32,783 bases of DNA from a virus. Positions 428 to 6,011 of the stretch are shown in pieces (the first letter of the stretch is position 1; every line of letters starts with the position of its first letter). Made by a program: the position numbers and the translations under genes. The DNA lies in the IMG/VR virus record IMGVR_UViG_3300004448_000417, positions 1 through 32,783 of that record; one strand, 5' to 3'. Below the pieces are notes generated by a model that searched no databases, had not been told where the DNA came from, and was given only the letters and a program-made list of their open reading frames with translations.

Positions 428-1960
428 TTATTCTAATTTGGAAATTTTTTCATTTAAAGTATCAATTTGCTTTTGCTGTTCTTTAACAGTTTCAATCAAA
501 AGTCCTATAAGTCCATTATAATTGACCGTTTTTGTATTTTGACCAGTAACAAGTTCGGGTAGAACTTTTTCCACTTCTTGAGCAATAACACCCGCAGATG
601 CTTTGTTACTATCTTTCCATTCAAAGTTCACACCACGAATACTAAGAACTTTTGATAATGGGTTTTCAATTGTTTTAATATTATCTTTTAAATTTTGATC
701 AGATGTTGTATTAAAATCTGTTGCCTTAACAGATCCAATGACATCAAGAGATTCCGTTGGTGTTGCGGAATTTATACCAACACGATTATTTGAGTCGTCA
801 TAAAAAAGTTGTGTCGCACCACCAAAAGCACCTCCATTATTATATTGTATCTGTCCATCAGAACCACCAGGACTTCCACCACCACCTCCTCCAGAGATAG
901 TGACCTCACTAATACCAGTTATTCTACCATTAGAATCTACTACAATTTGAGCTACATTAGATGCATCCCCATAAGTTGCAGCAGAGGCACCAGTCAATCC
1001 TGTAAGTCCAATTCCAGAACCACTGAAAGAAGTGGCAGTTACTACACCAGTAACATTGATACCATCAGAGTTAATAGTTACTCCAGATCCTATTACTATA
1101 GAAGTAAATGTTGGTGTATCTGATAATGTAATGGTGGCACCAATACCAGATCCGGATGCCGTTAAATTATCACTAACAAAATTAATATCTCGAATACTAT
1201 TTGAAGTGCCAATAACAGACCCTTCTTCTTTAATGGTTATTCCACTTATACCTCCACCTCCTCCTCCGGAAGCATCAGCACCAATCCACTTGCCAGTTGA
1301 AGACTGATATTTTAAGAACTTGCCATCAACCTTTGCGGTATTTTTATCGACATCATCTAAGAACTCAAGACGAACTTCACCTCCACCACCAAGTGAAGAT
1401 AACTGCTGTTGAATACGAGAAAGAAATACTTTATAATGTCTATCTAAATCTTCTAAAGTTGCAAACTTTTTATCAGGTTCTTTAATATTTTCTGATTGAT
1501 TATTTCCTATTTCAGTGAGAACTTTTAATGATCCATCAACAAAAGTTTTTTCTTTTATTTCTTCTGTTTTTTCTAGTTTTTCTTCATTTTCTTCAATAAC
1601 CTCAAGAACTTCATCCAGAGACTTTTCTATAACTTCATTAATCACTTCTTCTTCTTCTTTTTCAGAATCAGAATATAACCATTTTTCGAAAGCTTTAACC
1701 GTTTTTTCTTCTTTTATTTTTTTCTTTTTAGTTTCTTTTTTTAGATTTGATACTTCTTCAAAAACAGAATTTAAATTAATATTACCTATAGAAGGTTCTT
1801 TCTTTTTAGATTTTTTTTCTTTTTCTTTCTTTTTCAATCCAGCAAATTCATTGAAGAGAGCATCTAATCCCAGATCTCCCACCATAGAATCAAATTCTTC
1901 CTTCTTTTTCTTCTTATCTTCTGATATTAATTTGAAAAAATTATTTAGATCTTCGGACAT
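428..1960 (-). CDS. Tail fibre-like structural protein with C-terminal S74 intramolecular chaperone domain
   Basis: 510 residues in three parts. Residues 1-165 are extremely rich in Lys and Glu and probably helical or coiled. Residues 175-235 hold FLSRIQQQLSSLGGGGEVRL and LDDVDKNTAKVDGKFLKY, signatures I recall from marine T4-like virion proteins. Residues 235-415 are Gly/Ser/Thr-rich fibre sequence with several poly-Gly linkers and VTATSFSGSG at 307-316. Residues 420-510 match the peptidase S74 (endosialidase-type) chaperone: SDQNLKDNI, then GVIAQEVEKVLPELV, then a helical tail. In that family the domain trimerises the fibre and then cuts itself off. Ser420 and Lys425 have the five-residue spacing of the known Ser-Lys dyad. 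The start at ATG 1960 has only a weak AAGA upstream. The gene lies 25 bases after the Cys-rich gene. Confidence is high for S74 and moderate for fibre identity; the charged N-terminus is odd for a fibre. Confidence 0.85.
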   Translation of the reverse strand: MSEDLNNFFKLISEDKKKKKEEFDSMVGDLGLDALFNEFAGLKKKEKEKKSKKKEPSIGNINLNSVFEEVSNLKKETKKKKIKEEKTVKAFEKWLYSDSEKEEEEVINEVIEKSLDEVLEVIEENEEKLEKTEEIKEKTFVDGSLKVLTEIGNNQSENIKEPDKKFATLEDLDRHYKVFLSRIQQQLSSLGGGGEVRLEFLDDVDKNTAKVDGKFLKYQSSTGKWIGADASGGGGGGISGITIKEEGSVIGTSNSIRDINFVSDNLTASGSGIGATITLSDTPTFTSIVIGSGVTINSDGINVTGVVTATSFSGSGIGLTGLTGASAATYGDASNVAQIVVDSNGRITGISEVTISGGGGGGSPGGSDGQIQYNNGGAFGGATQLFYDDSNNRVGINSATPTESLDVIGSVKATDFNTTSDQNLKDNIKTIENPLSKVLSIRGVNFEWKDSNKASAGVIAQEVEKVLPELVTGQNTKTVNYNGLIGLLIETVKEQQKQIDTLNEKISKLE

Positions 1961-1985: not shown

Positions 1986-3365
1986 TTAACAATTCCAAGC
2001 TCTTAATGATTTGGACAATCTATCATCACCAGTGTTATTAGAAGGTTTTTGTCTCTTTCGCATTCCCTTCATTCTTGCACAAAAACTTTTCCTACGAGGA
2101 TTACCAACTTTTTTACTAGGTGCTTTTAGATCAGAACCAGGATTTTCTCTTTCATAAGACTTACGACCCTTCTCATTTAATCCTCCGGATTTATTTTTAC
2201 CAGATTTTTTAGTCCAGGCAGCACCTTCTTCAAGTTCATTTCTCCAATCAGATTGTTCAAATCTCACCTTTGGTTTTAATTTTTTCTTTCCATCAGGAGA
2301 AGGAACAAACACTCCAGTTTCGGGCGATTTCATATCTATACTATCAATATCGCCATCAACATCAGCATCAATTCTTCTTACTGCTTTTGCCGTAAGTTTT
2401 TTTAAGTTGCCACCACCGACTTTAGATTCTTCTTTTTCTTCCTTGCGAACGCAGTTATTGACAAGTTTACCACCCTTCATCTTCATACCCACCTTCTTAT
2501 GGGTATCCCAACAATCCTTTGCCTTTTCTTCAATTTCTATTTCTTCTTTCTTCACACAGTTATTATAAGTTTTACCAAACATTTTTTTGGTTCCTTTCTT
2601 CTCATATCCCTTCCAACACTTCTGTCCTTCATCAATCTGTTCTTGTCCACCTTTGATTGGTTCTGGTTTGATAATATCAACGAACTCATATTCAGTTGCT
2701 TGAAAATCATTTCTCCAATCAGAATACTCTACAGACTCTGACTTATTTCCCCAGTTAGCAGCACCAACCTTACGACACTTTACAAGTGCTCCAGAAGCAT
2801 ATGCAGAAGGCCAGACACTGTATCTACTCTTGACTTTCTTATAACAGGCATCTTTCTCACCTGCCTTTTCTACTACAGTTTCTTCTGTCTTCACGTTGAT
2901 TGCCTTCCCTTTTCTATCTGGATTTGGATCTTGACGTTGCTTTCTGTTAAATGCTTTTTTCTCTTCCTTATCGTCTAAATTTGCGGCCATTTTGCTGGAT
3001 CCACATTTTGGTTTTGTGGTTTGTCCTGGTTGTTTAGCACAGGGTTTTCCGGCATATTTACCACCCAATTGAACCCAACCAGGCTTGCCATCACTAGAAC
3101 GACTCTTACCAAACCAGTCACGCAAAGAACTATCACCACTTTTCGATTCACTTACTCCTCCACCATTTCCATTTCCACCATTACCATTACCGTTTCCATT
3201 TCCACCATTTCCATTACCGTTCCCATTATTATCACCATCTTCTCCAGATTCTTCTCCGTTTTCTTTGCGAAGATAACCACTAGATGCCACACGATATCCT
3301 AATGGAATTCGTTTACACTTTTTATCAGTATAACAATAATAATATCCTTGCTTACACTTTTTCAT
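1986..3365 (-). CDS. Cys-rich composite virion-associated protein with an EF-hand-like loop (function unknown)
   Basis: 459 residues, very basic, built from short modules. Residues 4-17 have Cys4, Cys11 and Cys17 in CKQGYYYCYTDKKC. Residues 47-70 are a Gly-Asn tandem repeat. Residues 84-160 include DWFGKSRSSDGKPGW and a basic region. Residues 172-207 hold ACYKKVKSRYSVWPSAYASG followed by ALVKCRKVGAANWG, resembling a short domain of unknown function (probably DUF5872) seen in marine phages. Two C-x19-C repeats follow (Cys250/270, Cys285/305). Residues 333-344, DADVDGDIDSID, match an EF-hand/dockerin calcium loop. Residues 383-459 (AWTKKSGKNKSGGLNEKG, then RRKSFCARM, ending RAWNC) resemble DUF6321. 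SDWRN occurs at 216-220 and 372-376. The domain names are from memory. I see no signal peptide and no obvious ribosome binding site. It follows gp16, so late expression is likely. It could be a packaged or DNA-associated protein, but the function is unknown. Confidence 0.8.
   Translation of the reverse strand: MKKCKQGYYYCYTDKKCKRIPLGYRVASSGYLRKENGEESGEDGDNNGNGNGNGGNGNGNGNGGNGNGGGVSESKSGDSSLRDWFGKSRSSDGKPGWVQLGGKYAGKPCAKQPGQTTKPKCGSSKMAANLDDKEEKKAFNRKQRQDPNPDRKGKAINVKTEETVVEKAGEKDACYKKVKSRYSVWPSAYASGALVKCRKVGAANWGNKSESVEYSDWRNDFQATEYEFVDIIKPEPIKGGQEQIDEGQKCWKGYEKKGTKKMFGKTYNNCVKKEEIEIEEKAKDCWDTHKKVGMKMKGGKLVNNCVRKEEKEESKVGGGNLKKLTAKAVRRIDADVDGDIDSIDMKSPETGVFVPSPDGKKKLKPKVRFEQSDWRNELEEGAAWTKKSGKNKSGGLNEKGRKSYERENPGSDLKAPSKKVGNPRRKSFCARMKGMRKRQKPSNNTGDDRLSKSLRAWNC
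3160..3233 (-). repeat. Short tandem repeat encoding a Gly-Asn linker
   Basis: Imperfect 6-base units of the type GGNAAY on the coding strand are repeated about 12 times. They encode alternating Gly and Asn (residues about 47-70 of the Cys-rich protein). The repeat probably makes a flexible linker between its N-terminal Cys module and the rest. Interruptions by GGTGGA break the run into blocks. Confidence 0.8.
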
Positions 3366-3379
3366 CGATGAAAAGTAGT

Positions 3380-3799
3380 CTATTCTTTATTATTTAGAAA
3401 ACCTTGCTTGAGCATTTTTTGGAGTTCTGATGTAGAACCAACAAACACTGCATTATTAGTAACATTATTTGTGGTCTTCTTAGTTTCGTCTTCTACATCC
3501 TTAAGTTTCTTCTGCAAGTCAATCAACTTATCGGTAGTATCAGCAACACTCTTAATCAACTGCCCTGCGACCTCGTATGCCCTTGGACTGCCTCCTTCCC
3601 CTGCTACCTCCATAATGCCGTTAATTGCCTCCTGACCCTTCTCTATGAGGGAGTAGAGGTTCGCACGACTATAGACATAATCTTTCTCTATATCATCATC
3701 CTTCGATTTTATAATCTCTGGTTTTTTGATTGGTTTTGACTCTATAATATCACTATCAATATTCAGAGCCTCATCTATTGAATCATAATTATTATTCAT
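3380..3799 (-). CDS. gp16: Terminase small subunit (DNA packaging)
   Basis: About 139 residues, slightly shorter than T4 gp16 (164). The small terminase binds the concatemeric genome and stimulates and regulates the large terminase motor (gp17) at the portal. Diagnostic sequence, recalled from marine T4-like gp16 proteins, is YSRANLYSLIEKGQEAING, then SPRAYEVAGQLIKSVADT, then LIDLQKKLKD, and near the end FVGSTSELQKMLKQ. The middle is predicted to be mostly helical, as in the family. I chose ATG 3799. An in-frame TTG at 3808 overlaps the gp15 stop and would add three residues. A GAGG lies 4 bases before the TTG but 13 before the ATG, so the true start is uncertain. The position directly after gp15 is as in T4. 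The large terminase does not follow within the window. Confidence 0.88.
   Translation of the reverse strand: MNNNYDSIDEALNIDSDIIESKPIKKPEIIKSKDDDIEKDYVYSRANLYSLIEKGQEAINGIMEVAGEGGSPRAYEVAGQLIKSVADTTDKLIDLQKKLKDVEDETKKTTNNVTNNAVFVGSTSELQKMLKQGFLNNKE
3391..3398 (-). promoter_or_regulatory. Possible late promoter (TCTAAATA) before the Cys-rich gene
   Basis: The minus strand reads TCTAAATA, 7 of 8 matches to TATAAATA, ending 25 bases before the ATG at 3365. It lies within the last codons of gp16. The spacing resembles that of the exact late octamers upstream of gp25, gp8 and the 111-residue gene. Confidence 0.4.
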
Positions 3800-3804
3800 A
3801 ACAA

Positions 3805-4608
3805 TCAAATATCCTCTTGTCTGGTAGGACTATAATCTTTAGAGTCTCCTAAAGATTCCCAACTCTCTGTAAATCCAAAATCATCACCAGGTTCTGCAGT
3901 AATGGGATCGGGAACAGCAGTATATCTCATTTCACGTTTTGCAGTCTTTGTATTAGTATTGGCATAAAGATCTGTCTGGACTTTACGAATGAGTCCATCA
4001 GATGTATCGGCAATAGAACCGAACAGGTAAGTTTTAGCAGTAAATCTTAAAGTGTAAATTAATGCTCTTCTCGTCTGAAATGATCCTTCATAATCATCTT
4101 GAAAATCAATACTATCAAGAACAATTGGAATATCTCTTTTTTCTCCAATAGAACTGACTAAATCAACAGTTAAATTAAAAGATGGTTGGAAAAAAGGAAG
4201 TATCTGCTCAACAATTTGAAGAGCATCATCATTTAACTTGGTAAAAATATTAAGTTCGAATCCAATATTATATGGGACCGGCATAAAAACTTTCTTTGTT
4301 TTATTATCAGTAGTATCGTTTGCCTTAAATGTTTGAGTAACTCCAGTTTTTCTAGTAGAATCATACTGAATATTTGTCATTTCAAATGACATTCTAGGAA
4401 GAGTGATTGCAACAGATTTTGTTAACTGTTCTTGCTGTTCAATTTTTGCAAGAAATTTTTGCATTGGTCCATAAGAAAGACCAACTTTTGTTTCATCTAA
4501 AATGCTACCATCTTTCTTTGTATGTCTGATAGAAATATCATTGAATAAAGTTCCAAAACTAATAATAGTTTTTCTTATGATTTCGTGATAAAAGTAAGTT
4601 CCTAACAT
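3805..4608 (-). CDS. gp15: Tail sheath stabiliser and tail terminator
   Basis: 267 residues, close to T4 gp15 (272). gp15 caps the finished tail tube and sheath and forms the surface that joins the neck (gp13/gp14) and head. It opens MLGTYFYHEIIRKTIISFG, then LFNDISIRHTKKDG, aligning with the T4 start (phage T4: MFGYFYNSSFRR...LFSNIQIKR, from memory). The most diagnostic block is FELNIFTKLNDDALQIVEQI followed by LPFFQPSFN, which corresponds to T4 IFTRYEDDMFQIVEQILPYF. A further match is the region KRDIPIVLDSIDFQDDYEG near residues 158-176, with LIRKVQTDLYANT close to the C-terminus. The start codon overlaps the gp14 stop (TAATG), so the two genes are likely translationally coupled. Confidence 0.92.
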   Translation of the reverse strand: MLGTYFYHEIIRKTIISFGTLFNDISIRHTKKDGSILDETKVGLSYGPMQKFLAKIEQQEQLTKSVAITLPRMSFEMTNIQYDSTRKTGVTQTFKANDTTDNKTKKVFMPVPYNIGFELNIFTKLNDDALQIVEQILPFFQPSFNLTVDLVSSIGEKRDIPIVLDSIDFQDDYEGSFQTRRALIYTLRFTAKTYLFGSIADTSDGLIRKVQTDLYANTNTKTAKREMRYTAVPDPITAEPGDDFGFTESWESLGDSKDYSPTRQEDI

Positions 4609-6011
4609 TAATAATTACCAAATGGATTTGACTCTGAGAAATCTAAAATATCATCCGCCTCTAATTCAAATTCTTCATTTGAATCGTATGGATTCTCATA
4701 ACTTTCATTATTATAATTTTGAACCACATATCTGGCTGATGAAATTGATCCTACTACAACTTCATCGGAACCAAATTCACCAGTATTTAGTGAAACTGTC
4801 AATATCTTACTATCAGGAACAAAATTTCTGACTACTGCTGTTGTTCCAGAAGTTTCTCCTGTTACAGTTTCATTATAAACATAAGTTCCTACACCAATTG
4901 CAGATAATCCTGTTATAGAAATAGTAGGTGCCTCAGTATATCCAATACCTGGTTTCAGTATTCTAATAGAATCGATTTCAGTATTCGAATTTATTCTTGC
5001 AACTGCAGTTGCAGTTACTCCAGTTCCAGGTCCACTAATTGTAACTATAGGTGATGCTGTATATCCACGACCAGATCCAGTAATCTCAATTTCAGAAACA
5101 CTAAATTGTGTTACTCCAACAGAACATGTGGCAGCTGCACCCGATCCACCACCTCCACTTATCGTAATTGTTGGGGGTGTTACATATCCAGAACCAGAAT
5201 TAGTTATTTCAAGTCTTTGAATAGATTGAACATTGCCAATATTAGTCGTAATAGCAACTGCTTCAGCAGTCTTACCACCACTTTGAAAACTGGATGGATC
5301 TGAAAATGTCACAATCGGTGTAGAACTATATCCACTACCATCATTATTCAAAAATATTTCACTAATAGCACCAGAAGAAATTGAAGTTTTTGCAAAAGCA
5401 GTAATTGCTATTCCAACAAGATTTAAGGATGTAATGTATCCTTCATCCTCAACAGTACTGTCAACTTCTTCAATACTTGTATCAATAAGTTCATTTTCAT
5501 ATTCATAAAGTTCGCAACTTAATTCATAAACATAATTTGTTCCTAATTGGTAGAAAGGTTTTTCAGATTCGACTCTTTTAATTTCAAAAAGTCTTTCTCC
5601 AAGAGGAAAGTAAATTAAATCTCCCTCTGTGGGTCTTTCAATTAATCCTAGAAAATCGGCATCATTTGCCGACGAACCTGATTGAATACCATTTAAAAAT
5701 GGTGCAATAAATTCTTCATATCTCTCTCTCGATATAGTTAAATTTATTTCATTTTTCAATCTAAGACCAAATTTAGTCATGATATCACTATCAGGAGCAT
5801 ATCCATCATAATTATTCAAATATGCTTCTATTAAAAAACTATCATCAAATTTTGATGATTGTATTTCTTTAATAATATTGTCAGTTTTAAAAACTTTTCT
5901 AGGCAAATAATAAACTTCTATACCATATATTTTTAATTGCTCATTAATTAAATCCTGAACAAGAAATTGTTCATTTGGGGATCCTTGAAGAAAAAATGGA
6001 TTTAATGTCAT
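4608..6011 (-). CDS. gp14: Neck protein gp14 with a repeat-bearing extension
   Basis: 467 residues, against 256 in T4. With gp13, gp14 forms the neck that closes the DNA-filled head and receives the tail. Residues 1-190 are the conserved neck part: NPFFLQGSPNEQFLVQDLIN, IYGIEVYYLPRK, KFDDSFLIEAYLNNYDGY and DIMTKFGLRLKNEINLTISR, all typical of marine T4-like gp14. Residues 224-367 hold four repeats: GSGYSSTPIVTF, GSGYVTPPTITI, GRGYTASPIVTI and GIGYTEAPTISI, 41-49 residues apart. The C-terminus (ADDILDFSESNPFGNY) again looks like the normal family end, so the repeats appear inserted before it. ATG 6011 lies 5 bases after the gp13 stop with only a weak GGAT upstream. The repeats probably form a beta-rich decoration on the neck, an inference. 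Confidence 0.9.
   Translation of the reverse strand: MTLNPFFLQGSPNEQFLVQDLINEQLKIYGIEVYYLPRKVFKTDNIIKEIQSSKFDDSFLIEAYLNNYDGYAPDSDIMTKFGLRLKNEINLTISRERYEEFIAPFLNGIQSGSSANDADFLGLIERPTEGDLIYFPLGERLFEIKRVESEKPFYQLGTNYVYELSCELYEYENELIDTSIEEVDSTVEDEGYITSLNLVGIAITAFAKTSISSGAISEIFLNNDGSGYSSTPIVTFSDPSSFQSGGKTAEAVAITTNIGNVQSIQRLEITNSGSGYVTPPTITISGGGGSGAAATCSVGVTQFSVSEIEITGSGRGYTASPIVTISGPGTGVTATAVARINSNTEIDSIRILKPGIGYTEAPTISITGLSAIGVGTYVYNETVTGETSGTTAVVRNFVPDSKILTVSLNTGEFGSDEVVVGSISSARYVVQNYNNESYENPYDSNEEFELEADDILDFSESNPFGNY
4911..5342 (-). repeat. Four degenerate GSGY...P..TI protein repeats inside gp14
   Basis: Four coding repeats with the pattern G-x-G-Y-x-x-x-P-x-[VI]-[TS]-[FI] start at gp14 residues 224, 273, 314 and 355. 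They are divergent at the DNA level, so they are old or under selection as protein repeats rather than recent tandem copies. Related motifs occur in gp8 and both giant proteins. Confidence 0.75.

Follow-up and report, generated by a model that had tools for sequence, protein, structure and literature searches.

The gene immediately following that of the terminase small subunit (gp16) in the window (the whole stretch analysed, 32,783 nt of the uncultured virus record IMGVR_UViG_3300004448_000417) raises the question of what a modular, cysteine-rich protein encoded at this site does for a T4-like phage. The minus-strand genes of the window lie in T4 order: gp6, a 4119-aa ORF, gp8, a 2476-aa ORF, the neck genes, gp14, gp15, gp16, the gene considered here and an S74-chaperone fibre gene. 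The ORF begins with ATG 14 nt past the gp16 stop, in line with the location directly after gp16 given in an earlier account of this DNA (the sequence-only reading), from which the minus strand and the repeated junction motif described below were absent. By profile search, the protein matched phrog_727 (E 4.6e-144) and, having the same locus and modules, it is a member of T4-GC119, a cyanophage cluster defined by Sullivan et al. (PMC3037559) and previously described only as a hypothetical protein. Syn33, S-SM2 and S-SM1 carry GC119 in the same gp16-adjacent position. Relatives were found in 464 phage records, for the most part cyanophages; the window protein had no match in S-PM2 or HTVC008M. 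The S-SKS1 homologue, as deposited, is split between beads D and E, giving two ORFs (L084:6820-6990). Elsewhere in the window, the gp14-like neck protein (4608-6011) has a Gly/Ser-rich insert matching fibre and baseplate profiles. We consider it likely that the window protein is a precursor in the prohead core, from which gp21 releases small proteins to be packaged with the DNA.

Iterated profiles defined beads N, A, B, D, E and F (Table 1), bearing out the earlier description of a modular protein. The relatives range from 182 to 1246 aa (some are cut by contig ends) and vary in bead number and, in part, in bead order. The DUF6321 (PF19846) match that had been suggested for checking is present, with 76.8 bits (E 2e-21; cutoff 28.5 bits) over residues 389-457 within bead F; this family, which has no assigned function, accounts for only one of the several beads. 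The suggestion of DUF5872 held in part: bead B resembles this domain, and a protein named DUF5872 in UniProt was among the fold matches, but one relative (L152) scored 16.4 bits (E 0.014), under the Pfam cutoff of 27.5 bits, and the window protein itself gave no match. Bead B is followed by a linker, SDWRNDF..EYEFVDIIKPEPI, running up to the putative IDE246 site. The SDWRxEL segment was rejected as a general cyanophage tag, since its occurrences outside the family were a single protein in S-CREM2 and none in S-SM1. AMOP (E 0.028, under its cutoff) was likewise rejected, and the defensin likeness of bead N was considered to be noise (weak PDB matches, E 2 or worse). Searches of the PDB by sequence and by fold returned nothing significant, and the BFVD fold search returned chiefly homologues. 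The AlphaFold model of the whole chain is of low confidence (mean pLDDT 55.6); beads N, B, D1 and F reach moderate confidence, the spacers and the Asp loop only low.

Table 1. Positions in the window of gp16, the bead-protein gene and its parts; the residue ranges of the bead rows are those of the predicted cleavage pieces.
Feature	Position	Strand	Residues	Description	Putative site at end
gp16, terminase small subunit	3380..3808	-		Pfam DNA_Packaging match	
Whole gene	1986..3365	-	459 aa	Cyanophage cluster T4-GC119 / phrog_727	
Bead N	3147..3365	-	1-73	CKQGYYYCYTDKKC and Asn/Gly tail; HMM matches, tagged stand-alone relatives	VSE73, then S
Bead A	2868..3146	-	74-166	Cys 109/121	VVE166, then K
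Bead B	2628..2867	-	167-246	DUF5872-like; Cys 174/197	IDE246, then G
Bead D1	2526..2627	-	247-280	C250-x19-C270	IEE280, then K
Beads D2 and E	2226..2525	-	281-380	C285-x19-C305 and Asp loop	LEE380, then G
Asp loop	2334..2369	-	333-344	DADVDGDIDSID	
Bead F	1989..2225	-	381-459	DUF6321; Cys 429/459; tagged stand-alone relatives	

The protein has 13 cysteines (4, 11, 17, 109, 121, 174, 197, 250, 270, 285, 305, 429 and 459), one pair per bead and three in the first bead. The C-x6-C-x5-C start, both C-x19-C repeats and the other sequence features named in the sequence-only reading are all present. In an alignment of 30 sequences, the cysteines of beads A, B and F (109, 121, 174, 197, 429 and 459) are invariant, and conservation of C250/C270 is 90% or higher. 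The canonical Asp loop is also present, beyond chance expectation, and is kept in every complete E module: 24 of the 26 E modules of relatives have exactly D1, D3, D5, G6, D7, V/I8, D9 and D12, with positions 2, 4, 10 and 11 variable; of the remaining two, one is truncated by a contig end and the other has T at position 8. The loop and cysteines are conserved in homologues, but the module containing the loop was found in only 11 of the 81 proteins of the first set, so most homologues lack it. The pattern DxDxDGD[VI]DxxD has dockerin-like spacing, with Asp at position 12, but the profiles of EF-hand and dockerin proposed for it gave no match at E<1, and the window protein has one loop only, with no following helix or second loop to pair with it. 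The loop region has a pLDDT below 40 and is therefore predicted to be unfolded. The loop may bind calcium in bead E alone. EF-hand-like loops, such as DKNNDGVINEAD, occur in other ORFs, at gp16 loci (L306-L382) and in tagged proteins.

These features had been taken to indicate an outer protein of the virion that calcium and disulfides would stabilise outside the cell. The conservation of the Asp loop and cysteine pairs and the presence of relatives in virions are consistent with such a protein, which we nonetheless consider highly improbable here: searches gave no match to EF-hand, dockerin, fibre or decoration proteins, and most relatives have no loop module. A location inside the head is favoured over an outer one because the junctions between beads are of the prohead-protease type and relatives bear the T4 internal-head targeting sequence.

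Evidence for processing of a core precursor comes from the junctions. The window protein has five [ILVMF]xE junction sites. The 22 residues preceding each bead were compared with shuffles of their own composition, and the motif was found in 159 of 177 non-redundant stretches (shuffled 73, s.d. 6), in 86 of 92 stretches of an independent set from gp16 loci (z 9.9) and in 117 of 130 junctions after pooling and thinning to 35% identity (z 10.6), z values that overstate independence, as the junction sequences are related. Requiring Ala, Gly, Ser or Lys at P1' ([ILVMF]xE[AGSK]) raised z to 17.4; reversing the motif left hardly any enrichment (z 2.7), and an Asp version with the same P1' residues showed none (z -2.0). 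Enrichment, less strong, was also seen with a spacing of 2 or 3 from the hydrophobic residue to Glu. Internal sites were depleted from bead A (3 observed versus 37 expected in 118 copies) and bead E (3 versus 13); bead D was neutral, and the DUF6321 bead was an exception, often having one LNE inside. Single whole proteins were weakly enriched (S-SCSM1_29, z 1.0; S-SM1 GC119, z 1.9).

Prohead proteases of the gp21 class cleave after Glu (PMC5694885), and the bead junctions resemble, from their sequence, the type of site cut by T4 gp21. When the scorable virion proteins of S-CREM2 were ranked for the motif, the top four were ORF137, the gp22 scaffold, ORF160 and gp21. Cyanophage major capsid proteins have LSE or LTE followed by A near the N terminus (in one case, LTE followed by T), which we take to be the counterpart of the T4 gp23 cleavage site. 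The N-terminal part of S-CREM2 ORF160 (L123:3843-4736; GATGFTGAAAPEGPVAGYDPLM) resembles the capsid segment immediately past this presumed site (GADGFTGAAAPGGPNAGFDPVM).

The same protein might instead remain intact as an internal head or core protein, the junctions being mere acidic flexible spacers between beads. AlphaFold does predict folded beads and disordered spacers, and the virion presence and targeting-sequence links described below would be unchanged. We nevertheless judge this explanation unlikely, because it leaves unexplained the exact spacing of the motif, its direction, the use of Glu and not Asp, and its near-absence from bead A.

A link between the putative precursor and the prohead core is suggested by the N-terminal sequences of its relatives. 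T4 IPII and IPIII start with MKTYQEFIAE, followed by the cut point and A (T4 record); residues 4 and 7 of this sequence count most for targeting and residues 8 and 10 for processing, which is inhibited by Asp at position 10 (PMC9026906). Bead-A/B proteins of the gp16-gp17 locus in three relatives (L152, L184 and L196) start with MKTFQEFILE followed by A, or a similar sequence. Among the matches listed, bead N occurs alone behind such a tag in L163, L178, L182 and L226, and DUF6321 in L188 and L223; these stand-alone first and last beads are 80-95 aa long, and that of L182 is encoded directly past the major capsid gene. After trimming at the tag, bead N as encoded alone in L163 would have 74 aa and the stand-alone DUF6321 protein 85 aa, the predicted end pieces of the window protein having 73 and 79 aa. 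The window protein itself and the gp16-adjacent relatives of the 77-locus survey lack an N-terminal targeting sequence. Some internal junctions of relatives mimic the tag (KKFQDFMDE then GQKCW; MKTFAEFQAE then CWKTH), with nine tag-like matches within the bead family versus 1.0 expected, and they are candidates for mediating core entry of the untagged copies.

The specificity of the tag was assessed at the DNA and protein levels. Across 11 genomes, a strict DNA pattern matched three times in T4 and once per genome in seven cyanophages, with zero matches when reversed; the T4 matches, serving as a positive control, were ipII, ipIII and 61.1, and those in six of the cyanophages corresponded to a cytidylyltransferase/NMNAT-type virion protein. 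Of the frames that a looser protein motif at ORF starts identified in S-CREM2, three belong to the published virion proteome (the SAM hydrolase ORF6, the hypothetical protein ORF136 and the cytidylyltransferase ORF154); the others were gp30, which is annotated and not in that proteome, and two short frames that lack annotation. In S-SM1, the sole match of the motif was T4-GC190, a cytidylyltransferase reported as a virion protein. IMG/VR yielded at least 120 pattern matches, and an in-frame stop no more than 27 codons upstream in all 81 examined indicated that these were ORF starts; when one residue of the pattern was moved, there were 27 matches in total, of which 10 lay at ORF starts.

Relatives of the protein are present in virions, as the sequence-only reading had anticipated, according to published mass spectrometry, which was carried out on phages other than that of the window and does not distinguish head from tail. 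Both ORF137 (encoded between gp16 and gp17, with DUF6321) and ORF160 (beads A, D and B) belong to the published S-CREM2 virion proteome, the coverage of ORF137 being low (4 peptides, 4.1%). The S-SCSM1 orthologue, SSCSM1_29, is named “virion protein” in the record of a phage whose virion was analysed by mass spectrometry, and paper and record together suggest that this name marks detection by that method. In the Syn33, S-SM2 and P-SSM2 records, GC119 is noted as similar to an S-SM1 protein; this note tracks virion proteins, skips gp16 and gp17, and is also found on the cytidylyltransferase known from the S-SM1 virion, and thus appears to be a sign of virion proteins.

The virion data also bear on the possibility that the protein is a terminase partner, co-encoded with the terminase and aiding DNA packaging. 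The bead-protein gene is directly downstream of gp16, overlapping it or no more than 20 nt away, in 67 of the 77 loci encoding a close gp16 (open frame beginning -35 to +18 nt from the gp16 stop), and it lies between gp16 and gp17 in isolates. Such a role is improbable, however, as the S-CREM2 virion list contains the bead family but neither gp16 nor gp17, bead number and length vary widely, and the P-SSM2 gene sits before gp16.

Under the core-precursor reading, the protein would enter the prohead core, where gp21 would cut after Glu at the [ILVMF]xE junctions, to judge from their sequence, releasing the small, mostly Lys-rich beads, each with a cysteine pair, as the pieces delimited in Table 1. 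The pieces would then accompany the DNA inside the mature head and would probably be ejected into the host, like T4 internal proteins, which bind DNA and counter host restriction (PMC3012670). By analogy with these proteins, the likeliest role of the beads would be DNA binding or protection against host defence. The T4 proteins IPI, IPII, IPIII and Alt (capsid-targeting sequence and gp21 cleavage) include small Lys-rich virion proteins like the beads, share their targeting sequence with bead relatives and have the same type of protease site; unlike the window protein, which strings several beads together with a site at every junction and bears no N-terminal tag, each T4 internal protein is one unit that has a propeptide at its N terminus. 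As it lacks the tag, we do not classify the window protein as a full T4-type internal head protein, and suggest instead that it would work like one. The ejection proteins of the giant phages phiKZ and SPN3US are also cargo processed by a prohead protease, cut after Glu at head maturation, but their sites (SxE and AxE, respectively) and sequences are different, and they have propeptides rather than bead chains.

More broadly, we give even chances to the proposal that the head cargo of marine T4-like phages includes a polyprotein that the prohead protease splits into several different mini-proteins, some also encoded as separately tagged genes, and that the same tag packs cytidylyltransferase and SAM hydrolase, delivering a mixed cargo to cyanobacteria at the start of infection. 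This would account for the presence of metabolic enzymes, such as the two S-CREM2 enzymes, in cyanophage virions, and would supply a function for T4-GC119, which adjoins gp16 in nearly all the relatives examined and had none. In the open literature searched, we found no mention of DUF6321, one of DUF5872 (in an algal virus paper), no link between Kyanoviridae and internal head proteins, and only the T4 review linking capsid-targeting sequences or internal head proteins to cyanophages. A prohead-processed internal protein is of a known kind; the novelty appears to lie in the bead-chain form, a precursor made up of beads and cut sites, and in its spread among marine phages.

The short N-terminal signature also provides a search tool for head cargo in uncultured ocean phages. 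Among the matches listed, the tagged proteins of uncultured viruses (L149-L227) included matches to CTP_transf_like (18 of 76), DUF5661 (6) and Zeta_toxin/AAA_33 (3), with a single lytic transglycolase (DPBB) and a single GNAT match. The start of the S74-chaperone fibre gene of the window (428-1960; MSEDLNNFFKLISEDKKKKKEEF) has a Phe-rich LISE segment resembling the targeting sequence; this likeness may be a coincidence, which would show that the loose motif is not fully specific. Finally, the hypothetical T4 protein gp61.1 (AF158101, 18966-19130; 54 aa) has a targeting-like start, MKTFKEFIKE, and is possibly an unrecognised internal head protein.
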